Assembly: GCF_964204865.1 (NCBI RefSeq)
Contig: NC_135251.1
Location: forward strand, 16,244,001 to 16,308,000
Length of the DNA stretch: 64,000 bases
Direction of reading: 5' to 3'
DNA from: Styela clava
Lineage: Eukaryota > Chordata > Ascidiacea > Stolidobranchia > Styelidae
Below the pieces are notes generated by a model. It was not told the origin of the DNA. It saw only the letters and a list, made by a program, of their open reading frames with translations, and searched no databases. The position numbers were made by a program, and so were the translations under genes. Below are positions 2,541 through 64,000 of this stretch, piece by piece (positions within the stretch are counted from its first letter, which is position 1; each line of letters starts with the position of its first letter).

Positions 2541-2888
2541 ATAGGATAGGATTTACATAGGCTATTTATCCAGGGGAGAGGAAAACCGATAGGAGGGCTT
2601 ATCCATATGGCGAACCACGGCCTCTCGCGCGGTTACCATTCCAAGTCGGGTACCGGTATGGGATTAGTTATATTGTTTGTTTTGGGAAGCATGGACTTGG
2701 TGGTGGAGAAAGCCGTACCCGACCAGCGGTTAGGTGAACCACCCAACGACGGCGAGGAGTCCAGCAATCCTCTCGCACATAACCATCCCTGCATGGGATT
2801 CGAACCTGCGAACCCACGCAGAGTAATTAGAGGTGCGGTGGCGAGCGTATTCCTAACGTTTAGCCTGTTAAGCCACACCGCCGCGCCA
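2541..2888 (-). mobile_element. tRNA-derived SINE, near full length
   Basis: This copy is inverted relative to the plus-strand copy at 46691-47046 and is very similar to it throughout. Read on minus it has a GC-rich head, a tRNA-like region with an A-box-like segment and a clear B box (GGTTCGAATCC), a body that ends in GAGAGGAAAGCC-like sequence, and a short ATCCT-repeat tail (near 2541-2553 on plus). Small open frames across it are by-products of the repeat and not genes. Confidence 0.85.
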
Positions 2889-2913
2889 CTTCTAGTTGGC
2901 CTGGCTCAACAAT

Positions 2914-3250
2914 TTTTGCATATGTTAATCCTAACCCCCACCTGACTATGTCACCGAAATTGTGTCATTTTGGACGTCACAGTGGCGTAAAAAGACCCTC
3001 CCAAAGTATGAGGATGATCGTCCAAAACGCGCAGACGATCACTCGAAATCGAGCAAGCTAGTTCTCTCGTTTTTTCGTCACAACGATCACCATAGGAGAG
3101 AGATCGTCGGCGTTAGCAAGTTCGTTATCGGCGGCGCAGATGCCATTTCGGGCGATTGTAATTATACTTTGGCAAGCCATATCACGTGATGGTGACATAA
3201 TTTTTGGATGGCATAGTCAGGTGGGGATTAGGGATAACATATGCAAAATT
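2914..3250. mobile_element. MITE with about 37-bp terminal inverted repeats
   Basis: The left end (TTTTGCATATGTTAATCC..., up to CACCTGACTATG) is repeated as its reverse complement at the right end (CATAGTCAGGTGGGG... to ATATGCAAAA). The element is about 335 bp and directly abuts the SINE at 2541-2888. A target duplication is not obvious. It is a non-autonomous DNA transposon; the superfamily cannot be given from the termini alone. Confidence 0.75.
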
Positions 3251-3348: not shown

Positions 3349-4180
3349 ATGAGTAGAAGTCCGTCTCAATATGCTAAGCACATGAAACATCTGAGTGCCA
3401 GAATATTTGGAGAACCTACTCAACAGCAACAATTTCAAGCACATAGAGTCATCAAGCTTATGTCCAAGCAGCCATTCTATAAAAAAACTGAGTTTGTCAA
3501 TTATTATCCGAAGATTTTTGAGACTGGAAGACTATTCATCAAACTCAGGGATTTGGGACTATATGTGTGAGTAGTAACTTTTCAAATGTAGAGATGATTT
3601 ATGATTCAGATATTTATTTTTGTCATGCAAAACCAGTATACAGATATACAATATGAAATAAATAAAAAGTACATAACAAATTAAAAAAACGTATATCGGC
3701 TTGTTGCAGTGGATTAGGGTTCGCGAAAGACTCAAAGAGTCATAGTCAAGTTTATTTTTTCCAACCAGTAATGTAATAAACAGATACAAAAATATATGCG
3801 AAAAAGTAAAGAACATAATTTTACTGGGGAAGGGAAGCCACCAGTCAACGACACTTTGTAGCTGCATTGAAGCAGCAAATATAGCAACCGAACAACTCAA
3901 TATTACACATTTACTAAATTGGACACAATCGTATAAAAAAGGGCAACAAAAAGAATACCAAATAAACTGCAAATGCCACAATGACTATGAGGTAGTATAT
4001 GTCAGCTTGTGGTCTCTAATTATTGTCAAAATTGACTATTGTTTCATAAATCATCATATATGTTTGTGTGATCTTTCTATTTTTAGAGATGAACATTTGG
4101 ACTTCAATGAAGAATACCAACGCTTGAGAGAAGCCAGAGGGAAAGTATTTGTGAGAAAAGACTGGTCAAAGAAAAATTAA
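3349..4180 (+). CDS. MRPS33: mitochondrial small ribosomal subunit protein S33
   Basis: Two coding exons, 3349-3566 and 4087-4180, join through a GTGAGT donor and a TTTTAG acceptor to give 103 residues; the human protein has about 106. The product is a small basic component of the mitochondrial ribosome. Family signals are the start region (YAKHMKHLSARIFGE), the middle YYPKIFETGRLFIKLRDLGLY, broken by no gap, and the conserved DEHLDFNEEYQRL run just after the junction. The stop is only 78 bp before the ATG of RNF146 on the same strand, and no AATAAA is present between them. The intron is 520 bp and holds nothing recognisable. Confidence is high for both identity and exon structure. Confidence 0.93.
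4170..4171 (+). promoter_or_regulatory. candidate trans-splice acceptor for RNF146
   Basis: This AG, inside the third-last sense codon of MRPS33, is the last AG before the RNF146 ATG at 4259. If the pair is an operon, it is the nearest possible leader acceptor. The sequence before it is not pyrimidine-rich, so the site is weak. A bicistronic mRNA or a hidden promoter are alternatives. Confidence 0.25.
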
Positions 4181-4258
4181 TTTTATATAACAACACTACA
4201 TTTCATATTTGTCTCACCTGCCTCATTTGTCAACAAACTTAACATTTTAATTTAAAAA

Positions 4259-5436
4259 ATGGAGGTTGAGGATCAGAACTCTGCAAAAACACAGGAATTG
4301 TCAACCAACCCAAGTAAAAACGACAATGTTCCCTCACTTCCAAGAGACCCCACATTGGATTGCGCTATATGCTTGCAACGTTTTGTTCAACCTATTCAAC
4401 TTCCATGCAGCCACACATTTTGCTTCTTGTGTGCAAAGGTTAGAATTGACTCATATAATACAATTATCTGGTAGGGATAATTAGAGTAGTGATATCAATC
4501 AGCATGGGGAAAATTTCTCGTTTTGAGCCTTCAAAAAACTGACACAGCAAACCTTACTAGTTCTTGTATATCATCTATTCTTTTTTTTTTCTTATATATT
4601 TTTTTAAATTGACTATAAGTAGTGTGAGATATCGCCTTGTATATATCGCATTTCAAGAAAATTGTTAAACAAAGTATTACACTTACAATATTAACTTTTT
4701 TATCATTGATAGTGCACTCGAAAACTTATGCTGACATTTTTAGAAAATGGTCTCAATTCCAGTCCTTGGGCCTGTTTGTCAGAATTTCACTTTATTAAAT
4801 TCTGTAAGGCCTAGAAATATTATTTTTCATCCAAAAATGGATGAATCAAGTGAGTTTTGAATACATTCCCAGTATACCATATTATATGAATGTTAATTCT
4901 AAACATTTGTGATCTATCTAACATAATGTATATTTGATTAGGGTATTGCACTTCAACGACAGCCTTGTGCTCTCTGCAGGACTGATATTCCCGCTGATTT
5001 CTTAACCAAACCTGGACAATTTCAAGCCAAACATCGTTCGAAACCAGGGACAGAAGATATAGCCACGCATATGTGGTACTATCAAGGTCATAAAGGATGG
5101 TGGCAATATGACATCAGAACGTCTGCTGACATTGAGGATGCATATAATCGCAAAGATAAATCCATTGACATCTTAATAGCTGGAGCCATTTATGTCATAG
5201 ACTTAGAGGAAATGGTACAGTATCGACGAGATATGAACTCCAGGAAAAGAAAAATCAAAAGAGATATAGTGGATGCCCAGAAAAAGGGTGTAGCCGGTAT
5301 GACTGGGTCCACCTCATCTACAGACACATCTACAAGTGCATCAACTTTGGGTGCTAGTGACTCCCAGTTGAGACAAGGTCCAATAGGCGATGGAAATGAT
5401 CCTGTTGTTGGATCCCAAACAGGAGGGTGTAACTGA
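4259..5436 (+). CDS. RNF146: E3 ubiquitin-protein ligase RNF146 (Iduna), RING and WWE domains
   Basis: Exons 4259-4438 and 4942-5436 encode 224 residues. A C3HC4 RING finger lies at about residues 35-72 ([17 protein letters not shown]). A WWE domain follows at about 104-167, with [13 protein letters not shown] and the Q-Y-R-R segment. In the known family the WWE domain binds iso-ADP-ribose of poly-ADP-ribosylated proteins, such as axin, and the RING ubiquitinates them. After the basic [19 protein letters not shown] motif there is only a short Ser/Thr-rich tail, so the protein lacks the long C-terminal region of the 359-residue human form. The gene follows MRPS33 with 78 bp between stop and start, and no AG lies in that gap. 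A splice acceptor for a separate mRNA would therefore have to sit inside the MRPS33 coding end (AG at 4170-4171). Confidence 0.93.
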
Positions 5437-8970: not shown

Positions 8971-9522
8971 TCAGCTCTCCCCAGAGCGTGATTTTTTACC
9001 ATATTTGTCGACCTTGTTCTGCCGAATCTTACGCTTTTTATCTTTGCTTGCAGATGCAGAGTCTTGGGTACTGACAGAACTATATCCATCTTCCGAGTTA
9101 TTTTTATTTTTAACACTCGATGTGGAAATTTTGCCATTTGAATCTGAACGTTTTAACAGTTTGTTTCCTCCATTTTCTCTAGATTGTTTTTCTTTGCTTG
9201 AACTAGAGTCTCCATCTTTTCGAGAATCCACTCCACTTACAGCCGCCGCAGATGTGATTGAAGATTTACTAAAAAGTCTTTCAGCTTCTTTAAATTTTCT
9301 GTTTCTACGATCTGATTTGCTATTAGTGTTTTTATTATTTGTCAAATATCTGTCCCATCCTCTAATGATGTTTCCATAGAGTTGAGTATCTTCCAAATAG
9401 CTTCCTTCAAAAGCGTAAATTTGGCGCTCAAGATTTGCTAAAGTTTCAGTTATTTCTTCTTTTCGCTTTACTAACTCTGATAGTTCTGCTCTGGTGTTGG
9501 ATCCTTGGTTTTTATTAGACAT
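8971..9522 (-). CDS. MEAF6: chromatin modification-related protein MEAF6 (Eaf6 subunit)
   Basis: This single-exon frame of 183 residues carries the Eaf6 signature: [19 protein letters not shown], then [27 protein letters not shown] and [17 protein letters not shown], almost unchanged from human. The rest is Ser/Lys-rich, low-complexity and ends in a basic [10 protein letters not shown] tail. MEAF6 is the small shared subunit of NuA4/TIP60 and of MOZ/MORF and HBO1 acetyltransferase complexes in the nucleus; the N-terminal coiled coil binds the partner subunits. The ORF has earlier ATGs at 9573, 9561 and 9546. A strong acceptor (CTTCTGTTTCAG, exon starting 9530) lies only 8 nt before the ATG at 9522, so that start is preferred and the sequence above it is taken as intron or outron. 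The human gene has several introns; this one has none in the coding part. Confidence 0.93.
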
Positions 9523-25709: not shown

Positions 25710-26462
25710 GTGAGTGAACGCGTTTAATACGTTTTAAACTTATTTTATTAGGTTTTGTTCACTTTCCAAATTCTTCGTCTTAATCTTTCGTGTATACCGG
25801 TATATGTTTTTGTTTTTTGCGAATATATCGAAATGAAATCTTATCTAAGTTGCTATGCTAATAAACGCTGTTTCGCTGTCAAGAACGGTCATCTTGCCTG
25901 TGCGCTGGCCTCTGCAAGTCGTGCGACACGTTTCACGCAAGGTCAGAAACGCGAAAAGTATAAGCGGAATTTTTAACTGCATTATTTACGGCAATCGTAC
26001 AAATATTTTTCTGAATTTTCAGTCGTGGGGATCGGTACATAAAATAATAATAATAGAGTAAATTTAAAAATAATAGAGACAGAGGGTTAAGATCTACGTT
26101 TCTCATTATTACATTGCTGTATTTCTTTTTTATCGCTGGGTCAGTAGCTTGAGATTGTAGCAGTTATTACCCCTACAGTCCTCATGTAGTAGTACCTAAT
26201 AGTATAGTATAGGATTATCACTTATAGAGACTCTTTGAAATTGTTCTGTTCTTTTTGAACATTCATTCTTTCACTCGATCACGGTGAAAAGTGCCACTCA
26301 TTTTTTCTTGGCTTTATAGGCATTCCTGTTATATGATTTGTTTGTTTCATTGAGTGTTGTGTATTCAGATTGTCGAAATAAATTGTATTAGTGTAGAAGT
26401 ACATCAAATGGATGTTGTATACTGAGCTCAGGAGATATCATGCCAATTACAGAAATTCGAAA

Positions 26463-27320
26463 ATGGAAGAAAACAAAAACGAAGAATGTGCTTGTGTAGG
26501 CATAAGAACTTGCCTCAAATGTGAAATGATTCATAAATCTGAAACTCTTTCACAAAATCAGAGAGAATGTAAACATTATTATTATAATCATGCCACCAAA
26601 AGTGCAGAACTGACGACAATCACCCAAAATGAAATTAACGAACTTCCACATTTTTTCGAATTTCCTGGTGTGATTGTCATTAATGACTTCATATCTCATT
26701 CCGAGGAAATTGCATTGGTGAATGCCATAGATGGTGAAATATGGAAACTGTCGCAATCCGGTAGAAGAAAACAAGACTTTGGTCCAAAAGTTAATTTTAA
26801 AAAACAGAAATGTAAAATTGCTTCGTTTTCTGGACTGCCCTCTTATTGTAAGTTTGCTGTGGATAGATTATCTTCAATCAATGGCTTGAATGACTTTAAG
26901 ACAGTTGAACTCTGTAATCTTGAATACTCTCCTGAAAGAGGTTCGGCAATTGACCCTCATTTTGATGATAGCTGGTTATGGGGTGAAAGACTTGTAACTT
27001 TGAATTTGCTATCTGACTCATGGTTGACAATGACTTGGGGGGGAAGTTCTATCAACTGGAAAAATCTCCCTTGTATTGGTATGATCGATCCAACTGATAT
27101 AAAAGTTAAGATACCACTTCGTGCAAGGTCTCTTGTTGTATTACACGGACCTGCTCGACACTCATGGAAACATGGTATTTTAAGGGAAGATATAAAAAAT
27201 CGCCGGGTTTGTTGTACATTTAGAGAACTTTCATTTGAATTTTTAAATGGGAATCAAAGAAATCAAGGCTGTAATTTATTAAAAATAGCTAATACTTTTT
27301 CTGGAAATGTTGTTTTATAA
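26463..27320 (+). CDS. ALKBH4: alpha-ketoglutarate-dependent dioxygenase alkB homolog 4
   Basis: One exon encodes 285 residues. The N-terminal Cys cluster CACVGIRTCLKCE matches the family (C-x-C-x5-C-x2-C). Then come WKLSQSGRRKQDFGPKVNF, ERGSAIDPHFDDSWLWGERL with the iron ligands His166 and Asp168, and GPARHSWKHGI with His237 the likely third ligand. A 2-oxoglutarate-binding arginine lies in NRRVCCTFRE. In mammals ALKBH4 is an Fe(II)/2-oxoglutarate enzyme reported to demethylate actin Lys84 and to act on other substrates. The ORF extends 17 codons further up (ATG 26412), but the start at 26463 matches the family's N-terminus. A splice-acceptor-like TATTCAG near 26371 could take a spliced leader. 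AATAAA at 27625-27630 is a possible polyadenylation signal. The human gene is split; this one is not. Confidence 0.95.
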   Translation: MEENKNEECACVGIRTCLKCEMIHKSETLSQNQRECKHYYYNHATKSAELTTITQNEINELPHFFEFPGVIVINDFISHSEEIALVNAIDGEIWKLSQSGRRKQDFGPKVNFKKQKCKIASFSGLPSYCKFAVDRLSSINGLNDFKTVELCNLEYSPERGSAIDPHFDDSWLWGERLVTLNLLSDSWLTMTWGGSSINWKNLPCIGMIDPTDIKVKIPLRARSLVVLHGPARHSWKHGILREDIKNRRVCCTFRELSFEFLNGNQRNQGCNLLKIANTFSGNVVL

Positions 27321-28661: not shown

Positions 28662-29171
28662 ATGGAAAGATTGGTTAGAATTGGTTTATCAAAGCGAGTT
28701 CTGATTGTGAGTAAAAACATATTGCAGAGGAAATTCAATCAGCCATTGACATCCACTTCAGTAGGATTTGTCAAACGCTCTTTACACATTTCATCCAGAA
28801 GTCTTACGACATATTTCACCAAAGAACATGAATGGATAGATGTGAAAGATGGTATAGGAACCATTGGTATCACAGAACATGCTCAAGATCAACTTGGTGA
28901 TCTGGTTTATTGTGAGCTTCCTGCTATCGAAACTGAATTTTCCAAAGGCGATGAGATGGCTGTAATTGAGAGCGTCAAGGCGGCTAGTGATCTATATTCT
29001 CCGGTATCCGGCAAAGTTGTTGAAGTAAATAAGAAGCTGGAGGATGAACCACAATTGATTAACGAATCTGCAAGGGGAGAAGGGTGGATTTTGAAAATGG
29101 AGGTCTTGGATAATGATGAATTGAAGGATCTGTTGAATGAAGATGAATATAAACGTTTTCTAACTGAATAA
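28662..29171 (+). CDS. GCSH: glycine cleavage system H protein, mitochondrial
   Basis: A single-exon gene of 169 residues, against 173 in human. An N-terminal Arg/Lys/Ser-rich stretch of about 48 residues without acids after Glu2 is a typical mitochondrial presequence. The mature part starts near TTYFTKEHEWIDV. It contains GTIGITEHAQDQLGDLVY and the lipoylation motif AVIESVKAASDLYSPVSG, with the lipoyl lysine at Lys106. It ends in GEGWILKM and DEYKRFL. The H protein's lipoyl arm shuttles the aminomethyl group between the P, T and L proteins of glycine cleavage. The open frame continues upstream with no ATG, so 28662 is the start. AATAAA at 29289-29294 is a likely polyadenylation signal. SUCLG2 starts only 250 bp downstream on the same strand. 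Confidence 0.95.
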   Translation: MERLVRIGLSKRVLIVSKNILQRKFNQPLTSTSVGFVKRSLHISSRSLTTYFTKEHEWIDVKDGIGTIGITEHAQDQLGDLVYCELPAIETEFSKGDEMAVIESVKAASDLYSPVSGKVVEVNKKLEDEPQLINESARGEGWILKMEVLDNDELKDLLNEDEYKRFLTE

Positions 29172-43890: not shown

Positions 43891-46800
43891 ATGAATGCGA
43901 AAAATACTTCAACCGCAGTAGAAAATGGTAAGAATAGATATACATGCTTCTATGGTACTGCAACACGCATATTGAAAATGGGTCTTAGGTTGGAATAACT
44001 GGTACTCCCGCAGTATGTGAACCAAAATGGCGGACACCGGAACGTAATATGTGTACCAGGTTAAGGTTAGGCCATAATTTTATTCCAATTTTACTTATTA
44101 TTTTAGTTCTATTACGAGGTCGGGGTCTAGCCAAGTGACTCACGTGGTATTTGTACCTGAAATTATGGCCTAACCCTGGTATACATACTACGTTTCGGTA
44201 TCCCATCTTGGTTCACATACTACGGGAAACGGGAGTATCGAATAACTATATTATCGACGCTGCATGCTACACCAAGATAACAATTGGTGTTTGCCGAGAG
44301 GGAACCGGTTTGATGAAAAACTCAAGCTTCAGAGATATAATAAATTGAATATTAGCTAACTTTCATCGATATTTTTTCTAACAAAAAACGCACATTTTTG
44401 AATTCACAAATAAAATGTTTCATATGCCACAAAATTTATCAATTTTAAATATGTGATTCTTTATTTTATTGCAGGAACTACGGAAAATGTGTCAAAAAAG
44501 ATCAAATATCCAAATACTTCTTCCGGTATTTCATTCGGCGACGTTGATCATATCGTTAATGCAGATGGTCAATATTTATTTTGCAGATATTGGAAACCAG
44601 ATACAGAAATCAAGTAAATATTTGATTTGATTGTGCTTTCAATATTAAGATAAAAATTGTCTATAAAAATAAGTTAGTTATATTACCTTCAAGTAATCGA
44701 ACGATCAAACAGTTATGAGTTAATTATCATAAAACATGGCTAATGATGATATTCTTTTAGATGATAATACTACAGTCCTATTCCTGTCATGCTGTGGAAT
44801 CGTTACAAAAATCAGTTCAATTTTTATTATTATATAATTATTAATTATGCTTACTAAAATTTTGTATATATTGGGTTTGGGTAACCCACATTTTTGTAGA
44901 TTAAAATTAAAAAAAAAGATAACGTTTCTTATTGTAGAAAAAGAGATTTGGGGATGATAGCACATATACAAAATGAATTCGGTAAACGAATAAAATCATC
45001 TTTAAATAATTTAAATCAAATCTGTCAAGTATATTTTAGGAGTTGTTTTATATTGTTCACAATATTATATTTTCGCATATCCTAATCCTATCCATTTCCT
45101 AATAAATTACACCCATGGGTTCCCAACACCTCTTTTCGTTCCAAGTCTTTAGTTATTGTATAATATAAATTCAGAGCATTGATGTTCCATGCACACGGAT
45201 TTGCTGAACATTCTGCACCTTCAAAAGTACTAGCAGAAAGAATGATGGAGCTTGGAATTTATTCATTTGCCCATGATGATGGTGATTTGAATTCAACATT
45301 AATAGCAGTGCAGTATGTTGCTGAGTACCAAGGGAACTGTTATGTAAAATGATCGCCACGGCCACTCCATTACTGTTCTATTAATCTGGAGTTGATGCTC
45401 CTGTAACTATCATGTATTTTAACTACAGACAGCAGTAAAATAAAACATTCGTAATCGGTGATTAAATCCGGCATACTACCGTCTAGCTATAGTACTAGAG
45501 GTGGGCAAGGTTTTTGAACTAGGGGCCAACAATTTTGCTCATCTAGACTGTCGGGCCATGTAAGTGTGACGTAAAAAGTCAATCTAAAATGTTACATTTT
45601 ATGAGCAATATTTACAATGTTACAAAAGAAAAAGTGGAAAACAATAAGCCTCGTTCCAAAACTAAATTTAATTGCAATCTTAACACATTCCTTGAGCTAT
45701 TTTTAGCTAAAACATCAAAATTTGGTTTTAGTTTAGTTGTGGCAGCATCAGGCGAGCCAGATTGAATTACCAAACGGGCCGGATTTGGCCCGCGGGCTTG
45801 GCCCGCGTAGTTTGCCCATGTCAGAACTATAGTTAGTACTAGCATCGATTTTTTTCATTTCAGTTTCTATGTGCACAATTTTAAAACTAAAATGCTACTT
45901 TCATTTATTTTAGTTGCTCATGGAGAAAGTCAAGGTCTTCGAGGTCATATATTGGATTATAAAGTTATGGTGCGAGACATATGGCAACACATCGATTTGA
46001 TAAGACCGGAGTATCCGGAGGTTCCCATATTCATATACGCTCATTCCATGGTAAACTACGTTTTCTTATTTTTTGAATATGAAAATTACATATTCGGTTT
46101 TTGTAAACGCATTATAGCATAATGAGGTAGGCTACCTTGCGGGTAGGTACAGACAACAGTCAATGGGCGTGAAGTTTATATGCGTCCTATGTATTTAGGT
46201 AACCACTCGAGAATTTACAATAATAACTAAAGAACGATGCGCAAGTATATGAACACGAAAGCCAAAACAAAGTAGTACGGATATGCAATCTGTCACAGAC
46301 ACAGTAGACACCACCCGCAGTCTCCGCGACCTCGCCTTACCACTAACATGAACGCGGACCCGCCACGAGGTGCGCAATGTTTAATTTTGATGACGTCATC
46401 GTACACAAAAAAACAATCTTATAAAGCCCACAATATTTTTTTAATTAAATAAAAGTAGTAGCCTTCCATCGAAATTTTAGTCTTTAACCGCTGAAAATTT
46501 TAAAGCGATTATTTCAGAGCAACAACAAGAACTCTAACAACATCATACTAATAATTACAACAAAGCGATCTCTTTGTCCACTTCGCGTCCAATAATAATA
46601 ATATGTAAAAGTCCTCTGTTTTTACATATTATAAACTAACTACATAGTGATGGCCTAAAAATTTGAAGTAGTAATTCCGCGGGCGGCCGCGGGCGCGGCG
46701 GTGTGGTTCAACGGGTTAAGCGTTAGGAATACGCTCGCCACCGCTCCTCTAATTACTCTGCGTGGGTTCGCAGGTTCGAATCCCATGCAGGGATGGTTAT

Positions 46801-49383
46801 GTGCGAGAGGATTGCTGGACTCCTCGCCGTCGTTGGGTGGTTCACGTAACCGCTGGTCGGTTACGGCTTCCTCCACCACCAATTCCATGCTTCCGAAAAC
46901 AAACAATACAGTATACCTAACTAATCCCATACCCGACTTGGAATGGTAACCGGACGAGAGGCCGTGGTTCGCCATATGGATAAGCCGTCTTATCGGCTTT
47001 CCTCTCCCCCGGGATAAATATGTAAATCCTATCCTATCCTATCCTAAATGAAGTTTGATCTTTATGTGCAGGGAGGTGCGCTTGCATTGATCGCAGCTCA
47101 CGAAAGGCCGAACTTCTTTCGCGGTATTCTCTTATCAGCTCCCTATATCACACCAAGTGAAGCCACAGCTACTCCAGTGAAGGTAATTTATGAATAATTG
47201 ACTATAGAATACACAACATTCTCAACTCAAGTAGCATCACATGTTACCCCAAGTCAATGAAAGTGGCTTGTTTGTCAACTTTCGTGGTTATCTAATTATG
47301 TTAAAAGCTGATTTTCATTTTACGAAATACTCACGAAATTACAATAATTCTAAAAAATAATTGATCTATAATACACTTTACCACAAAAGCAATATCATGT
47401 ATAATCAAGCAAGAAATATTTCCGAAAACGTAACTTCGTATCTTTTTTTGCCAATCTTTGCAATTTCCACTAAACTAATTTCATCAGTAAGCCTTAAAAA
47501 TTTAATATATACGCATTTTCATAGCAATGCTATGATGGGGCATTGAGAAGTTGTTACATAAATGCAAGTTGATTTGACCTTAATTGCATTTTCTGACAGT
47601 TTTCATCGGATAAATTGATATTTCGAAGTGGATTCTTTGGGGACGCCCAGATATCAATAGCTCACTCAATCGTCACTCATTTATTTATTTGATAAAACAG
47701 GTTATCTTGGCTAAGATTGTTGGGCGTCTTGCACCAAAAATTCGGATAGCACAAATGGAAACAGACTTCCTTTCAAGAGACGAGAAACAGGCAATTTAAA
47801 AAAATATTCTTTGTTATTATGAGCGCCTGTAATAAGCTGTAAGTGAGCAATTGATTCTGTGGGTTTGCCAAAATATAGTAATCGAAATTTGAGAAACATT
47901 TCATTTACCATTCATTTCATGAAGGATATGCACAGAGATCGGTAGGAAACCAATGATAGACAATGATGAAATGTATTCCTTGTGTAGATGAAGTATCCAG
48001 AAAATATGACATTCTGATTCCGAGAATCATTTTAAAATCATAACATTGAAATGCCGAGTGATTTTGGATTTAGTGGAATACTTTCTTCAAATCAAATAGT
48101 GTGATTCAACCTTTATATCTGATAATCTGCGTGGGTTCGCAGGTTCCAATCCCGTGGGGGATAATTATGTGCGAGAGGATTGCCGGACTCCTCGCTACCG
48201 TAGGGGTGGTTCACGTAACCGCTGGTCGGTTACGGCGTCCCCCACCATCAAGTTCATGCTTCTGAAAACAAATAACTGGCTAACTAATCCCATACCCGAT
48301 ATGAACTGCTAAACCATATGAGAGGCCGTGGTTCGCTGTATGATTAAGCCGTCTTCTCGCCATTCCTCTCCCCCAGGATCAATATGTATGTAAATCCATC
48401 TTTTCCTATATAGCGTTATTAAACATTAATAATATCAAATAATGTCACACTTCCTATGAATTCAGTGTACTTGCACCAAACATGGTAGCCAAAAGCAAAC
48501 AAAAAATACATTCCATACTTTGAAAATGAATAGTTTAATTTCGATTGTATTATTGCTATGTTTGTCAATTAGGCTAATAGCTGTTATGTACACTATCATA
48601 ACGAAAGTCGGATCTGTGCAAAATTTTAAGTCTTATAAGCACTGCAATTTTACGTTTGTAGGGCCAACACCATGAAATCATGTATCTATTATGATCATTT
48701 CGCCTATCCTTGTTTAATTAATGTTTCTGATTTTGGTGATATTGAGCGTGAAAAATTCACAAAAACGAATTACGGTTCAACCCTACGAATACGCATTAAA
48801 AACATGTATTTCACAGATGGAGACTTACATGAATGACCCGCTAAACGACAAGTTAGGAATGAGAGCCAGTTTTGCAATTCAGTTTTTGGCTATTGCTAAG
48901 AAGATGAAAGAAATCCTGCCACAAACCACGGGATCGTTCTTTGTCGCACATTCAGAAGATGACAAAATTTGTGACGTCAGTGGGTCAAGGTTCATGGCTG
49001 AAGTATCCAAAAGCGAAGATTTAACTTTGAAGGTATGAACAACTAAGGTCGTTTATCTTTGTAAATCTTCCTCTTTACCGTTACCTGAACGAAATTAATT
49101 GATCAACCAATTCTCGTGATCGTGATGAGGGTAACATATTCTCAATTGTCAGTAGTAATTACATGTGGAAGGATTTTAAGCGAAAGCAATAAAAAAGCCA
49201 TGACAAATTTTATTCTCGTTTATATTTGGTATGTGACCCCTTATTAATTTCAGTTTTAGTAAAAGTTTTATTATTAACACACAGATCTACAATGGTGCAA
49301 TGCATAAGCTCGAACGTGAAACTCCAGAATTTGTCGAGGCCTATTTTGATGAAGTTTTACAATGGATAAAAGAGCGAATGTAG
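43891..49383 (+). CDS. MGLL: monoglyceride lipase
   Basis: Eight exons joined in phase: 43891-43927, 44475-44613, 45175-45281, 45914-46050, 47072-47182, 47701-47790, 48817-49032, 49285-49383. They give 311 residues; human has 303. Shared landmarks are [27 protein letters not shown] (oxyanion-hole HG), [15 protein letters not shown], then [18 protein letters not shown]. The triad is Ser139, Asp256, His286, with the same spacing as human (122, 239, 269). The nucleophile elbow reads A-H-S-M-G, with Ala for the first Gly of GxSxG. The enzyme hydrolyses monoacylglycerols, in mammals including 2-arachidonoylglycerol. The exon 6 to 7 join needs a GC donor (CAG then GCAATT at 47791); using it gives an alignment of identical length to human, while reading on meets a stop five nucleotides later. 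SINE copies sit in introns 4 and 6, and hAT elements in introns 1 and 3. Confidence 0.93.
44001..44239. mobile_element. hairpin MITE with hAT-type target duplication, 239 bp
   Basis: Located in MGLL intron 1. Ends GGTACTCCCG and CGGGAGTATC are near-perfect inverted repeats, and the two halves continue as complements (AGTATGTGAACCAA with TTGGTTCACATACT; GGTTAAGGTTAGGCCATAA with its counterpart). Exact 8-bp duplication GAATAACT is at 43993-44000 and 44240-44247, with central TA. A related segment without clear ends lies at about 38222-38340 in SUCLG2 intron 5. Confidence 0.82.
45493..45824. mobile_element. diverged hAT element related to the one at 6019
   Basis: Located in MGLL intron 3. GAGGTGGGCAAG near the left end and TTTGCCCATGTCAG at the right resemble the CAGGGGTGGGCAA family. 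GGGCC-rich segments lie inside. Flanks AGCTATAG (45485-45492) and AACTATAG (45825-45832) match at 7 of 8, with central TA. Confidence 0.65.
46691..47046 (+). mobile_element. tRNA-derived SINE, full length
   Basis: Located in MGLL intron 4. A GC-rich start is followed by an A-box-like TGGTTCAACGG (46704-46714) and a perfect B box GGTTCGAATCC (46773-46783), as in a tRNA-type polymerase III promoter. The body includes GTGCGAGAGGATTGCTGGAC and CGTAACCGCTGGTCGG. It ends TCTCCCCCGGGATAAATATG and an ATCCT repeat of about four units (47026-47045). The tail stops only about 26 bp before the MGLL exon 5 acceptor. Confidence 0.9.
48125..48400 (+). mobile_element. SINE copy lacking the 5' part
   Basis: Located in MGLL intron 6. 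It begins at the segment GCGTGGGTTCGCAGGTTCC, just before the B box, and continues through GTGCGAGAGGATTGC, CACGTAACCGCTGGTCGG and GTTCGCTGTATGATTAAGCC to TCTCCCCCAGGATCAATATG. The A box and head are missing. Confidence 0.85.
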
Positions 49384-57077: not shown

Positions 57078-58789
57078 ACATTAACTGTTAATCTTGTTGA
57101 ATCGAGCTTTTAAATAGGTATATGTCTAGTAATATGGAAGTTCCCAATTTCTTACAAATCAAATTACTGGTGTTATCATCTCCCGTTTAATGATCATGAT
57201 AGATATTATCATTTTGTATTTTTAACATGCTGTTTTTAAATGGCCTCGTAAACAAACCCTCTCCCAAATGTGAAAAATTTGCTAGAATCAGATTACCTGA
57301 CAAGCATGTGGTGTACAGACAAGAGGATAATAATGTCATTCAAATATATTATGTATAATTTTAAATAAAGAGCATCTTTCACTTAGTTGATAATACCAAT
57401 TCAAAATCATAGGCAGCGATAAGTTTTATCATTTTTTTTGTATAATCAATTGAAAAGTCTTTTTTATTCCAATATTAGAGTAGAATAATAAACTCTGTTT
57501 TCCATTTTTTCACATTTTAATTGCTTTCGCATTGCATTTTTGTTTCTTCCAACTTTTATTTCGGTAACATGCAACACCAAATTAAATGACAAGAAAATGG
57601 AATTTTCTATTCGATGGATTGATATGTGTTTGACAATAGTTAAAAGTGATCTATTTACCTAGCAAAATGTTTTTATACCAATGCACTATGACTATATGAA
57701 TCTGAATATCTACAAAAATGCTACCGGAACAATATGAAAAATTCATGACTACATTTTTTCTATCCTTAATTTTACAAAATTCTATTCAGGCATTCCCCAT
57801 TATACTGAGAGATATTTGGAGCTTTATAATGTTCATAATTTTGGCAGATTCATTGAAATTTTCGAAGCCACCACCAGATAAGGAGTTTACATCCCTGAGA
57901 GCTGTAAATAATTTTCTGCATGCACTGTGTAATGGAGCAAAAGTAATATATTTTATTTGTTATAGTGATCTTCATAAACTAGTTGTTTAAATAAAACAAA
58001 ATCACAGATTGTGAATAGTGGTTATCTCTTCTGCAAAGGAATTAGAATGGTATGATAATTGCTAAGGTTACGACTTCTTCTTCATTTATAAACAGGCTTG
58101 TAGTGCGTTAGAGGTAGCCTCGTCATGACGTTTTTGCTGGTATTTCACTGCAAACTGTTTTCTTAAATGTTTTCTTAAAGAAGTATATGCCAAGTCCACG
58201 GGTCTCGGTATCCTGAATCTCCTTGTTACATATTCACAGGCAACTAAATAGTACAATTGTTGAGATTATATTTATTAGTAGTTCAACATGTATGATAAAA
58301 TAGGCACAATGTATTGTTAAAAAGGTGGCATATTGTTAAAGGAAAACTGCATTCATCACTCTATAAAACCAGACAGTAACTACTGACAAGAAAGAACAAT
58401 AACACAATTTGACGGGAAATTCTATCATTCATTAGTATTCAACACGTTCAGTATCCATATGAAGTCTCAGACGAATTTGAAAGTCAAATTGATATCGTTG
58501 ACCTTGCATATATTGATTTTTTTTAAATTGGTACATTACATGCGGTGCTTCAAAATGGCCACTGCTACCTGTGACAGGTAAATGTTGCTACATATACCAT
58601 TGAATCTGTGTGCAAAATAATTCATAATATTTTGTTTGTGCTAGATATGCCTTTGTTAATTTGGAAAATGAATATAAATATTCAAGCCAAATTGACATAA
58701 TGGGTGTAGGAGTGATGCCACTAAACCCCAGTCAGAATCCAGAAGCATAATATTCAATATAATCTACAAACAAGTTTTATTTATAAACA
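57078..58789. other. convergent 3' region between CFAP97 and KDM8
   Basis: No gene is recognised. KDM8 has a polyadenylation signal (TTTATT on plus, 58776-58781) only 8 nt past its stop, so nearly all of this stretch is CFAP97 3' flank or spacer. Confidence 0.5.
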
Positions 58790-60070
58790 TTAATTCCACC
58801 AGAAACTTACAGAAAAGCTTTTATCTAGCGATCTAACATAATGCCAGTAACCAGGAGGTATATAAAGCATCTGGCCAGGCAGTAAAATACATTCTTCCCT
58901 ATGATTACGATCCATTTCAGTAAAAAGTGGAAAATTTGTATCATCTGGCTTTTCAACATCAACTTTTGATGTGTTGTTTAACATTCCCTCATGGGGGTAG
59001 AGAGCATTCTCATGTGAAGGATGATATAACCGTACATATTTACGTCCCGCAACTTGACATAACAGATTGTGTTTTTTGTCATAATGACATGGTGAAACAG
59101 TGCCACCAGGTCCAAACCAAGCATTTATTTCGGTATCAGTATCAGGGTCCCAATCTGGCATTTTTGAAATACAGCAATAATCTGGAATACATATGTCATT
59201 TCTAAGCAGTGGGATTTGATCAAAAAGTGTATGTTGTGCTAAATACGCTTTTGATGTACAATCATCATTAAATATATATTTTTGAATGAAATTTGAAATA
59301 GTCATTAATTTTTGACCCCAACTTTCATCAGTGTATTTAGCACCAAGTTCTACAGGTACAAGTCGGTGTCCTGCAATATTGTTAAGATACTGAAAATTCC
59401 ATTTAGCCATAGCAGGCCAATGATCAATGCAATCGCTAAGCACCATGGGAAGAGCATGGTTCATAAAATCTTGGAAAGAAATTAAAGATGGATTTGATAA
59501 GACTTTTATTGGATTATGTACTTCTGGATCTAGTTCATAATTTTCAGTGTTTTGGGTCTCAATATATTTCGGTTGGGCAGGTTTAAAAATTTTAATAATT
59601 TTGTGTAATATACCATTCATTACATTATGGCCCATTAGCAAGCCCATGTCAGAGACTCTACAAATTTCTATCAAATCGTCATCTGTTGTGGCATTATAGC
59701 CCAAACACGAAGCTTTGAAGACACAAGCAAATGAATATAGTTTTTGCCACACAAGCGGGACATTTTTCCAATGAAAAGAATTCAACTTTTCCCATGTTAA
59801 GTCTAGTATCATTTCTGCATTGTCAAGACATTTTTCAATATTGTTTTCATATAATAATGTGCAACATTCTTTTAAAATGAATAATGAGACATTGTCAATC
59901 TTATTGCAACATACATGGAGACATTGTACTATTGTATGCTCCATTTCTGAGTCTGTGCTAGGTAATGTTTGCTTAAGTTCAGATTTGCGAGTAGTAAAAT
60001 GTAGTATTGCTTTCGGAGATTCAAGGTTAATACTCTTTTCTGAGGTCAAGAGTTGGTCCACCATCTTCAT
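58790..60070 (-). CDS. KDM8: JmjC-domain hydroxylase/protease KDM8 (JMJD5)
   Basis: This is a single-exon gene. With the ATG at 60070 it has 426 residues (424 from 60064; human 416). The N-terminal helical part aligns with family through [14 protein letters not shown] and [15 protein letters not shown]. The JmjC part has [45 protein letters not shown] and [14 protein letters not shown] and ends FSVSFWWN. Iron ligands are His329, Asp331 and His410; human has 321, 323 and 400. Reported activities are arginyl hydroxylation and cleavage of methylated histone tails. The frame runs up to an ATG at 60124, but the family N-terminal length favours 60070 or 60064. Either start lies inside the last codons of NUDCD2 on the same strand, in a different frame. 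The 3' untranslated region is very short. Confidence 0.94.
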
Positions 60071-60509
60071 AATTCCCTGTGATCTCAGCGTTACTGAAAT
60101 CGAATCCTGGATTTTCGAGTTCAAATCTTTCGAGAGTCAAATTTTTTTGCATTTGATCTTTCGTTAAAGGGTCTACAGCAAATTCTCCACCCTCAAATAA
60201 TGATGGCCAAAAACAATTTTCTTTCTTGCGACTGCGTTTCACAAGCAATATTCGGATTAATTTTTGATCTTCCACACTCCAAGTTGATTCGTCCACCAAT
60301 ATTCCTTGCGGTAGGGGGCTGTTAAATAATTCCTTCCCCCTCACAACGCAAGATAAATGCTGGGGTTCAATCACCACATTTACTTCTTTCCCCCTTGTCC
60401 CTTTCTCAACATCAACAACAACAACCACGTCCTGCACAGTTTGATACCAATTACCCCAGGGAGTCTTGCAACATGCAACACCGCTTCTTTCGTCGAAATC
60501 GCTATTCAT
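60027..60509 (-). CDS. NUDCD2: NudC domain-containing protein 2
   Basis: A single-exon frame of 160 residues; human has 157. It opens [19 protein letters not shown], matching the family start FEERSGVV, so the longer frame to 60578 is not used. The CS/p23-like domain fills about residues 12-105 ([33 protein letters not shown]). The C-terminus has [20 protein letters not shown] and [15 protein letters not shown], typical of the family. NUDCD2 is an Hsp90 co-chaperone-like protein linked to LIS1 stability and dynein function. Its last 44 nt are shared with the start of KDM8 in another frame. That is the clearest sign in the window of a polycistronic unit. Confidence 0.95.
60077..60078 (-). promoter_or_regulatory. 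candidate trans-splice acceptor for KDM8 within NUDCD2
   Basis: GATCACAG ends 6 nt before the KDM8 ATG at 60070, and lies inside the NUDCD2 codons for AEITG. A second AG with a better pyrimidine lead (TTCGATTTCAG) lies about 17 nt further up. Use of either would give a KDM8 message beginning inside the NUDCD2 coding sequence. Confidence 0.35.
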
Positions 60510-62365
60510 TTCAAAATGTAACTCCAAGTAAACGGAAAATTCTACGAGAATAAACCGCTCAACTAGTAGCAATCGCAACCATGTAACAAATGCTTTTCAC
60601 CGAATAGGCTATGATGAACTTATGCTAAAATCATGGTTAATTAACCATGCTAAAATCAATCCTCCACACAAGAGTTCCAGTGGTGGATAAGATTCTATGC
60701 GGAACGTCACCAATCTTCCGTAATTAGTGGGCAAGAATTTCCATTTTTCTAAATGTATTTTACAATCTGAGATTTCATTTTTCTTGTATTAACAATTGTG
60801 TAAATATATTTTTTGGCTACTACACGTTTTCTTGGATTGCATGATGTAACTACGGTATTTATTTCCGCTCAATCAATGACTATTACATGCTACTGAAAAT
60901 TTGCATCGTAATTTCACTGCGACGTGTTAATGTTATCGTCATCTTGAATGTGTTATAAGTTAGATCTAGGCTATATGATATCTCGTTTTCTCTGTTTTAC
61001 TGAAATTGTTTTCGATTTATATTTAGTCTACTGGGTACCGGTAAGCTGGCAAGGGCGACAGGTTCGCCATATGGTTAAGCCGTCTTATCGACTTTCCTCT
61101 TCCCGGGATAAATATGCAAATCTGCTCAGTTCAGCAGTTGGATGGCATTTTAGATTCATATGATAGGCGCTCCATAGTTATGTAATGTACGGTAACTATA
61201 TAATATAAGTAGGCCTACTGTTGTCATGAATCTCATAATTTACTGTGATAAATATTTTTTCAACGTGCAATAGTGAAATAGATGGACAGATTTGACAATT
61301 TTTGATACTCCAAACTCCAAAGTTTACTCTTTGTGCAGTCAATAATTTATTGCTAGAATAGAAATGGTTTCTGGATTATCGTAATTTAGTTCTGTAGTTT
61401 TGTTCCATCTTTGTCAAAAGTTCGTTAATAGGCTAATTCATATCTGCTTTAATTTATATATGTCTATTCCTGTACTGTTGTAGAAATATTTTTGTATAGA
61501 GTTGCAATGCAGTTCTAATTAGTTCTCATTTAAATCCTTGTCCGAATTTATGTTTATATCTCATAAAAGCGCCATGTGTACTCTTCTTTTTCTTCAATCA
61601 AATTAACTTAATAAATAAATTATATTACTGTTGTATCGTTACCTCCCAGTCATACTGTGAACTTTTGTTCCACTTATTTTGTTATTGAAATTTTTTATAT
61701 TATGTGTTTTGTTTGACGAAATAATAAATTCTCTCTTTTTTTATCACTGACTTATACTCCTGTGCTTACTCATCTGTAATTATTTACAGACTTTTTGATC
61801 CACAGACGTTTCGCCCCCTCAGACCATTCCAATCACTAGATGGCATATGGCGATTTGAGTTATGACTTTGACATGGCAGTTTTTTTAAATTATATTAAAT
61901 AAACACTCAAATATTTTAAGATTTAAGTGATTAAGGATATTTATCCACCACATTAGTGCCATATATGGGCAACCTGTGGCTTCTGTACAACCTTAACCCT
62001 GTAACCCCCTACCCATGCCCAAATTTCCTATGAATCCACATGTATTTTTAGGCAACTCCAATGCCAATGTATTATTAACAAAAAGATTAACTCAAACTGT
62101 CTTATTTGGCAGAAAAGTCTGTTGGGTGAAAAGTCTGTTTATCCCCTCACATATAATCACCTCCCATGGGATTTGAACCTGTTCAGGGTAATCAGAGATG
62201 CGATGGCTTACCATGATGCACCGACTGCCGAGCTGATTCTATTTTAATCCTAGTGGATAGGCAGATTTTGCATATGTTAACTATTGCATCGGGAAATCCT
62301 CAAGTCCTACAATTAATTACAACTGATTTCCCAAATTAATATTTGCAGATAATTTGGTTGTAATC
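60510..62365. other. spacer between divergent NUDCD2 and GOLGA4
   Basis: No gene is recognised. A SINE 3' fragment on plus lies at about 61060-61125 (GGTTCGCCATATGGTTAAGC, then CTTCCCGGGATAAATATGC). An inverted, worn SINE piece is at about 62130-62235 (ATGGGATTTGAACCTG). A palindrome GGTTAATTAACC lies near 60635. An acceptor TTTGCAG ends at 62348, just before the GOLGA4 start. Confidence 0.5.
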
Positions 62366-64000
62366 ATGTTTAAAAACTTGAAACAGAAAGTATCTACTGA
62401 TCAAAAAGTTCGAACTCCACAGTCTGCCAATCGGGGTGATGCTTCAAGCACACCCACTGGTCGTACTGGAACATCTAGATTGCCACGACCATCCAATTCA
62501 GCGCCACCCAGGCGATCCAATTCTGAGAGTTTGAATGGTGCCAATGGTGCAGCTACTAAACAAAATAATGAATCCATGGAATCACCAGATATTGTACAAC
62601 AGGTGGGAAATATATCAGGTGATGTTTCTCCCAATCCTTCAAATCATGGAGAAACGGATCAAGCACAAAAAAGTGCTCAGATAGCTACTGAAGCTGAGAA
62701 AAAAGTTCCATTTTTCAAGAGACTAGAATTTTTGACTCCTCTTAAAGATCAAGTTGCAAATAAACTTTCGGAAAGTAAGGAATCAATCAGTTCTCTCGTT
62801 GACGAAGTTCGTGGCAATGTAACAGGTTCTTCCAATGAACGATCTAAACCGGATATTGTTGCACAAACTAACGATCGTCGGCGAAGTGATTCCATTTCAG
62901 ATACAGAAGAAATATCAATGAATCGGAATGCTATTGATGTAAGTGCAATTCCCAAAGAACAACTATTTGCAAAAGTAATGAGACTGGAGAAAACTCTTCT
63001 TAAATATAGAGAAAGATATGCAGAACTTGCTTCTAATTTTCGTGAGGCGAAACAAGAAAGAGAAAAGTTGCAATCAGTTATGCAACAGACCCAAGATAAA
63101 AATCTACGCAGAATTCAGGAACTCAAAGAAGCCGCAGCGTTGGATTTGAAAGCCAAAATGCATCTCGAAGAGGAGTTTCGAGTTTCTCTGGAAGAAAAAG
63201 ATCAAATGATACAAGTGCTTCATACTCAAGTTGCAATTCTTAAAGATGATCCGCAGAAGTCTCCACCACCAGTACAAACTGAAACTGCTCAAGGCCAGGG
63301 AGATGATTCAAAGCTTCAAAAAAGGGTCAAAACCTTAGAAGAACAACTCAAATTTGCTAAAGATACTTGTGAAGGTCTAAGAAGCCAAGGTGATGCTTTA
63401 CAAGAACAACTTAGTGAGCGATTAGAAGAATTAGAAAACCTGAAAGATTCGAACGTTGCGGAAAAGTCGAAACTTATCAAACAATTGCGTGAAGCAAAAA
63501 ACGTTATTGAGAAAATTGAAGAGGACAAAGTCACTGCTGTTGCAGAGGCCAAACGACAAATGCATGAGATTCTTGAAGGTAAAGATATCGAAGTAGAATC
63601 CTTACATCAACAAGTCAAGAAACTGCAAATTGATCTTGATGAATTTAAAATGAAGAAAGAGCAACGGGAAAATTCTTTGTTGGAGGAACTTCAAAAGGCA
63701 GTTACTATTGGTAGAACAGCAGAAGCTCAAAGAGCTGATGCTTTATTGAAAACTGAAACTATACAGAAAGAAATGGAAGGCAGAATTACAAAGATTGAAG
63801 AAGAATTTGATGCGGAAAGAAAAACTTATGTTTCTGAGGTTTCACATGCAAAAGCTGATAATCTTGATATTAATGAGAAACTTGAAAATGTAATGAAAAA
63901 ACACAAAAGTGATTTAGAGGCTCATACAAAAATGCATGAAGTTGCATTGCAAGAACAAGCAAAGAAATATAAACTGGAATTGGATGAAAAAGAGAATCAA
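62366..64000 (+). CDS. GOLGA4: golgin subfamily A member 4 (golgin-245/p230), N-terminal part, cut by the window edge
   Basis: ATG at 62366, 18 nt after a TTTGCAG acceptor, opens 545 codons that stay in frame to the last base. The start MFKNLKQKVSTDQK matches the golgin N-terminus MFKKLKQKIS. A Ser/Pro-rich stretch (about residues 20-190) is followed by coiled coil from about 195: KVMRLEKTLLKYRERYAEL, QDKNLRRIQELKE, HLEEEFRVSLEEKDQMIQVL, LQEQLSERLEELENLKD and AEAKRQMHEILEGKDIEV. These segments keep human GOLGA4 order and spacing. GOLGA4 is a trans-Golgi coiled-coil tether held by a C-terminal GRIP domain, which lies outside this window. More than 1.6 kb of coding sequence shows no intron, unlike the split human gene. 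Confidence 0.93.
   Translation, partial: MFKNLKQKVSTDQKVRTPQSANRGDASSTPTGRTGTSRLPRPSNSAPPRRSNSESLNGANGAATKQNNESMESPDIVQQVGNISGDVSPNPSNHGETDQAQKSAQIATEAEKKVPFFKRLEFLTPLKDQVANKLSESKESISSLVDEVRGNVTGSSNERSKPDIVAQTNDRRRSDSISDTEEISMNRNAIDVSAIPKEQLFAKVMRLEKTLLKYRERYAELASNFREAKQEREKLQSVMQQTQDKNLRRIQELKEAAALDLKAKMHLEEEFRVSLEEKDQMIQVLHTQVAILKDDPQKSPPPVQTETAQGQGDDSKLQKRVKTLEEQLKFAKDTCEGLRSQGDALQEQLSERLEELENLKDSNVAEKSKLIKQLREAKNVIEKIEEDKVTAVAEAKRQMHEILEGKDIEVESLHQQVKKLQIDLDEFKMKKEQRENSLLEELQKAVTIGRTAEAQRADALLKTETIQKEMEGRITKIEEEFDAERKTYVSEVSHAKADNLDINEKLENVMKKHKSDLEAHTKMHEVALQEQAKKYKLELDEKENQ

Follow-up and report, generated by a model that had tools for sequence, protein, structure and literature searches.

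A close NUDCD2–KDM8 gene pair in the ascidian Styela clava: a candidate operon with a possible short out-of-frame coding overlap

Introduction

In the ascidian Ciona, operons have been defined as same-strand gene pairs separated by less than 100 bp, which gives 1,310 candidates, and where 5′ ends were mapped the two genes turned out to be directly abutted (PMC2760879). A single-exon gene comes first in 60% of these operons (PMC2760879), and the median intergenic distance of predicted operons is 1 bp (PMC7986045). Ciona genes that are trans-spliced outside operons have on average three to four acceptor sites (PMC11155486). Flatworms attach spliced leaders at cis-splice acceptors and also within coding regions (PMC12582326). 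Coding sequence shared between neighbours is recorded for Drosophila, where FlyBase holds 18 gene pairs with shared coding sequence in different frames, most overlaps being shorter than 40 nt and 26 of the 36 genes being present on polycistronic transcripts (PMC4528330). A further pair, that of fuhc in Botryllus, has its genes 227 bp apart and produces rare linked transcripts together with a second mRNA that carries no leader, an observation for which the authors favour read-through (PMC3691228). Because that second mRNA lacks a leader, the Botryllus case speaks against an easy operon reading of the pair analysed here.

The pair consists of NUDCD2 and KDM8 and lies in a 64,000-nt stretch of Styela clava DNA, hereafter the window, from whose first nucleotide positions are counted. 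NUDCD2 has been tied to LIS1–dynein and centrosome function in a paper on HMMR that places it apart from HMMR in Ciona and whose passages on the gene do not mention an operon (PMC7226759).

Two intact frames on one strand

NUDCD2 and KDM8 are both intronless and follow each other head to tail on the minus strand. The GC content of the DNA is 35%. NUDCD2 (60027..60509) is a single open frame of 160 aa that runs from ATG 60509 to a TAA stop at 60029-60027. It matched PDB 2rh0 in a phmmer search (E 4.6e-48 over aa 5-154 of 160) and contains the Pfam CS domain (E 5.3e-14), and its alignment with mouse NUDCD2 runs through GNYxxGGP, beyond the KDM8 ATGs and the overlap. KDM8, also known as JMJD5, occupies another single open frame (58790..60070, minus strand; 426 aa from ATG 60070) and matched PDB 6f4n (phmmer, E 7.6e-81 over aa 181-426) as well as the Pfam domains Cupin_8 (1.8e-42) and ARM_KDM8_N (4.9e-11). 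KDM8 is a JmjC oxygenase, consistent with the names of its PDB matches. Its frame is stop-free from 60136 to the stop ending at 58790 and offers in-frame ATGs at 60070, at 60064 and then at 59944, from which proteins of 426, 424 and 384 aa would be made; human KDM8, with about 416 aa, is nearer to the 426-aa than to the 384-aa form.

If translation of KDM8 starts at 60070, the two coding sequences overlap over 44 nt, the NUDCD2 stop included (60027..60070, minus strand), and if it starts at 60064 the overlap is 38 nt; the frames differ in either case. A reading of this DNA made earlier from its letters (the sequence-only reading) had placed the NUDCD2 stop and the two upstream ATGs at these positions and in different frames, and its coordinates are correct. 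In the sequence, each of the two ATGs arises where a NUDCD2 codon that ends in T, one for Tyr and one for Asp, is followed by G. The same reading had named a frameshift error among the findings that would refute its interpretation. Such an error, or one of assembly, was rejected, since the conserved parts of both proteins match known sequences and no frameshift is required. The identities of the two genes are firm and both frames are intact. A broader artefact, either an assembly error or a non-functional retrocopied pair, would agree with the fact that each gene is a single open frame; the conserved domains, intact in both frames without a frameshift, argue against it and make it highly improbable.

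Upstream of NUDCD2 there is an inverted repeat with 27-nt arms that are 78% complementary (61786-61812 and 62112-62138), and a long coding-like frame at 62327-64000 on the plus strand diverges from NUDCD2. The latter had no Pfam match at E 0.01, and we take it to be golgin-like. Rfam gave nothing at gathering score and ARAGORN no tRNA. No relatives were obtained for NUDCD2 and KDM8 in viral contigs or for NUDCD2 alone in prokaryote genomes; since these collections are by description ones of viruses and prokaryotes, this absence is uninformative.

The start of KDM8

The first KDM8-frame ATG beyond the NUDCD2 stop is Met43 of the longest form (59942..59944, minus strand), 82 nt past that stop. 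The sequence-only reading had held that KDM8 would lose conserved-length N-terminal sequence by starting beyond the NUDCD2 stop, and here it was not borne out. ARM_KDM8_N scores 43.3 bits from 59944 and 43.1 from 60070, and Cupin_8 scores 146.7 and 146.4 bits, respectively. The ARM_KDM8_N match covers positions 36-113 of a profile of 125, and a protein that starts at Met43 has 40 residues before the matched stretch, which leaves room for the 35 unmatched profile columns. No Pfam domain was matched in residues 1-42. Because the choice of start leaves the domain scores unchanged, the domains do not support the conserved-length argument, though it may still be right, and N-terminal length was rejected as evidence for the overlap.

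Met43 would be the start codon in an ordinary abutting operon, in which the leader would be joined at an AG of the gap, for example that ending at 59947, NUDCD2 would end near there and the coding sequences would not overlap. This corresponds to the published Ciona pattern of same-strand genes less than 100 bp apart and directly abutted (PMC2760879), with a median distance of 1 bp (PMC7986045). Met43 retains all the domain score and has G at both -3 and +4. What argues against an abutting operon is the stretch that separates the NUDCD2 stop from Met43 (59945..60025, minus strand), which in the KDM8 frame comprises 27 codons, contains no in-frame ATG and displays coding-like codon usage.

For the codon scores, six further genes from the window served as the training set, with KDM8 and NUDCD2 excluded, and the coding reference consisted of 690 windows from eight genes, each gene being scored with itself left out. 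The 27 codons score 3.87, a value that 46.7% of the 690 coding windows do not exceed. Of the noncoding windows, 20,029 are stop-free, and 2.4% of these reach it. The likelihood ratio in favour of coding, stop-freeness included, is about 34, and it is also 34 with GC-matched windows, although the stretch is short, genes vary, the windows are overlapping and normal distributions are assumed for the ratio. In its other open frame the stretch scores -13.2, and with KDM8 and NUDCD2 included in the training the 27 codons score 3.95 (2.3% of 896 windows). KDM8 as a whole has a poor mean codon score of -0.7, and a value of -3.8 was obtained for the 40 codons that follow Met43. In the KDM8 frame both the overlap itself (60070-60026; -0.01) and the 22 codons upstream of it (-0.4) are neutral.

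Since the 27 codons contain no in-frame ATG, their translation would require a start at 60070 or 60064, or else in an upstream exon. Judging from this codon signal, KDM8 probably starts inside NUDCD2. An upstream exon is what cis-splicing would supply, by joining a shared 5′ exon to 60094 and skipping NUDCD2. The KDM8 frame is indeed open above 60094 as far as 60136. However, none of the 113 GTs in 62360-60091 comes near the donor consensus; the best scores 5.8 against 9.0-10.8 for the six donors from which the matrix was made, the latter values not being left-out scores. We consider this route most improbable.

How often such an overlap would arise by chance was estimated from 20,000 synonymous recodings of NUDCD2. 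An ATG-started open frame that enters the end of NUDCD2 in the KDM8 frame was found in 34% of the recodings. The KDM8 frame was open from 60070 to the NUDCD2 stop in 35% of them and from 60136 in 6.8%. Among noncoding 27-codon windows, 15% are stop-free in the flanks of the pair, and over the entire 64 kb the share is 20% (20,029 of 99,439). The product of the recoding and stop-free fractions gives a chance probability of roughly 5-7% for an ATG-started open overlap that reaches Met43, an estimate to which the codon-usage result comes in addition.

Candidate splice acceptors and 3′ end signals around the junction

Candidate acceptors were scored with a matrix derived from 11 introns of three genes, a small set whose boundaries were placed by eye at exon starts and picked at AGs. 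One exon each of NHLRC2 and succinyl-CoA ligase beta was matched to PDB; the remaining boundaries rest on a homology that we assume. When each of the 11 known acceptors was left out in turn, their scores ranged from -1.0 to 11.9.

The sequence-only reading had pointed to acceptor-like AGs close before the KDM8 ATG and inside NUDCD2, and two are present there, ending at 60094 and 60077. Its choice of joining site was the second (60077..60078, minus strand; atcacag followed by GGAATTATG), which has an unremarkable score of -2.9, in the 44th percentile from the top. The first (60094..60095, minus strand; gattcgatttcag followed by TAACG) scores higher, with a modest 1.4, the only positive value among the 18 AGs that end between 60158 and 59900 on this strand. 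With a leader joined at 60093, the first ATG would be that at 60070, after 23 nt. Among the 6,400 AGs of the window, AG 60094 ranks in the top 17.1%; against the 11 left-out known acceptors, of which it beats one, it is weak. Because 12 others among the 102 AGs of 60900-58780 score at least as high, several lying within KDM8 or upstream of NUDCD2, AG 60094 is not outstanding over the whole locus. AG 60040 scores -4.7.

For an abutting operon the relevant AGs are the five of the gap, at 60010 (-7.3), 59972 (-8.1), 59958 (-4.7), 59953 (-4.3) and 59947 (-4.8), all of which score below every one of the 11 left-out acceptors. Moreover, none of the 13 poly(A) hexamers sought in 60110-59877 was present, which leaves the gap without a signal of this kind for the NUDCD2 3′ end. 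Together with the coding-like codons before Met43, these observations make a plain abutting arrangement unlikely. No match to the Ciona spliced leader was found in the window with up to 2 mismatches, a result that says nothing about leader use.

A likely 3′ end signal, AATAAA, is located 8 nt past the KDM8 stop (58776..58781, minus strand). AATAAA or ATTAAA first occurs 430 nt past the stop of NUDCD2 and 613 nt past that of MRPS33, the upstream gene of a second pair described below; in seven other genes the corresponding distances are 8, 79, 91, 99, 286, 354 and 458 nt. The long distance of NUDCD2 is only suggestive, since 34% of random noncoding starts lie at least 430 nt from such a hexamer.

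A second tight pair in the window

A similar arrangement is found on the plus strand near the beginning of the window. Its upstream member is an MRPS33-like gene of two exons (3349..4180), the first read by eye and the last beginning after AG 4086, with its stop at 4178-4180. The Pfam match to MRP-S33 (E 0.0018, 18.9 bits) lies under the curated cutoff of 25, and the name is in part our presumption. The downstream member is an RNF146-like gene (4259..5436), also of two exons, with the Pfam domain WWE on exon 2 (E 3.5e-19); the name and the RING exon are likewise presumed.

Between the MRPS33 stop and the RNF146 ATG at 4259 there are 78 nt without any AG, a condition shared by 8.7% of the 78-nt stretches in the two noncoding flanks of KDM8–NUDCD2. 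If RNF146 is trans-spliced, its acceptor must therefore lie within MRPS33 or above it. Within MRPS33, AG 4086 scores 8.4 and AG 4112 scores -0.6. Against a strict parallel with NUDCD2–KDM8, TTTAAA, a weak variant of the poly(A) signal, is present in the gap at 4251, and AAGAAA occurs at 4169. RNF146 could also have a promoter of its own.

Seven same-strand neighbour pairs were recognised in the window, in a list that is incomplete, includes several presumed names and contains gaps that unfound first or last exons would shorten. Two of the pairs are tight (-44 or +82 nt, and +78 nt); the genes of the remaining five are separated by more than 1.3 kb, the shortest of the wide gaps being the 1.3 kb of ALKBH4–GCSH. 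This distribution of distances agrees with operons, and the operon-like spacing that the sequence-only reading had remarked on at NUDCD2–KDM8 thus recurs at MRPS33–RNF146.

The spacing also bears on the possibility that KDM8 has a promoter inside NUDCD2 and is expressed from a capped mRNA that starts above 60070, without trans-splicing. The overlap would then be real and the operon unnecessary, and both the start inside NUDCD2 and the absence of a strong acceptor would be accounted for. However, a second tight pair among kilobase gaps is better explained by operons, and we regard an internal promoter as quite unlikely.

MEAF6-, ALKBH4- and GCSH-like genes, names that we partly assume, are each contained in one open frame (8971-9519, minus strand; 26412-27320 and 28662-29171, plus strand), which indicates that one-exon genes are common in this window. 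In addition, the stop-free stretches 2550-2942 (plus strand) and 46655-47038 (minus strand) have near-identical translations and are apparently copies of one repeat.

A proposed route to two products

The gene identities, frames, spacing and codon-usage signal described above are observations; beyond them we infer that NUDCD2 and KDM8 are very probably co-transcribed. Our best, though tentative, reading of the locus, to which we give somewhat less than even weight, is that the pair is operon-like and that its coding sequences overlap in different frames by 38 or 44 nt, and the KDM8 mRNA would be formed by spliced-leader trans-splicing inside NUDCD2. A single promoter upstream of NUDCD2 would produce a pre-mRNA spanning both genes. 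NUDCD2 protein would be made from RNA in which the frame of NUDCD2 is preserved entire and whose probable end is the AATAAA past KDM8, and for the KDM8 mRNA a leader would be joined at an AG within NUDCD2, most likely 60094. Given co-transcription and a start inside NUDCD2, the use of 60094 itself is about evenly balanced. With the leader at this site, the first start codon would be ATG 60070 or 60064. The end of NUDCD2 would consequently be coding sequence in one fate of the pre-mRNA and discarded outron plus KDM8 leader in the other. An acceptor within NUDCD2 implies that the NUDCD2 mRNA extends past the KDM8 5′ end, so that each pre-mRNA would give one product.

Both frames could instead be translated from one dicistronic mRNA, with KDM8 reached by internal entry, rescanning or reinitiation. 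Precedents exist in FlyBase, with 159 dicistronic gene pairs in addition to the 18 pairs with different-frame coding overlap, most below 40 nt (PMC4528330), and the context of ATG 60064 includes A at -3 as well as G at +4. However, the KDM8 ATG precedes the NUDCD2 stop and the NUDCD2 start lies upstream, and ribosomes would have to back up or enter internally; a dicistronic mRNA is accordingly very unlikely.

Trans-splicing inside the upstream gene may be generalised, as a rather doubtful conjecture, to a class of operons of negative length, in which the downstream acceptor lies in the upstream coding sequence and the upstream gene acts as a facultative outron. Each transcript would then yield either NUDCD2 or KDM8, and either MRPS33 or RNF146, which would amount to either/or control and not to coordinate expression. 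If this is true, the two products would compete for each transcript and the operon would behave as a switch, against the usual view of operons as units of coordinate expression. An acceptor inside the upstream gene would also complicate gene models and knock-downs.

Comparison with known systems

Each ingredient of the proposed arrangement is already known, and the combination was not met in the literature searched, where a spliced-leader operon with overlapping coding sequences was not found, which is no proof of its absence. A classification of NUDCD2–KDM8 as a different-frame overlapping gene pair would apply if KDM8 starts at 60070 or 60064, a possibility that the codon usage beside the overlap supports. 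In this respect the pair would resemble the multiphasic pairs of Drosophila, which also consist of two same-strand genes with a short overlap in different frames; it differs from them in its proposed leader, since the account of those pairs, in the parts that treat them, mentions no spliced leader and, for polycistronic transcripts, appeals to internal entry, resumption of scanning or some other mechanism (PMC4528330). The SL1-type operons of C. elegans likewise have no intercistronic sequence. In contrast to the present proposal, their poly(A) site abuts the acceptor, and the passages devoted to them describe no coding overlap (PMC12582326). The internal acceptors of flatworms resemble what is proposed for 60094 and 4086; they are, however, described gene by gene in the passages that treat them, and not for a downstream gene that begins there and overlaps the upstream coding sequence (PMC12582326).

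There is also a likeness to the operons of Ciona, with which NUDCD2–KDM8 shares the common strand, a distance within 100 bp (-44 or +82 nt between coding sequences) and a single-exon first gene (PMC2760879). Contrary to the Ciona operons, where the upstream gene ends at the downstream acceptor, the best-scoring acceptor near the KDM8 start lies in the NUDCD2 coding sequence, and its use would generate mature mRNAs that overlap and exclude each other.
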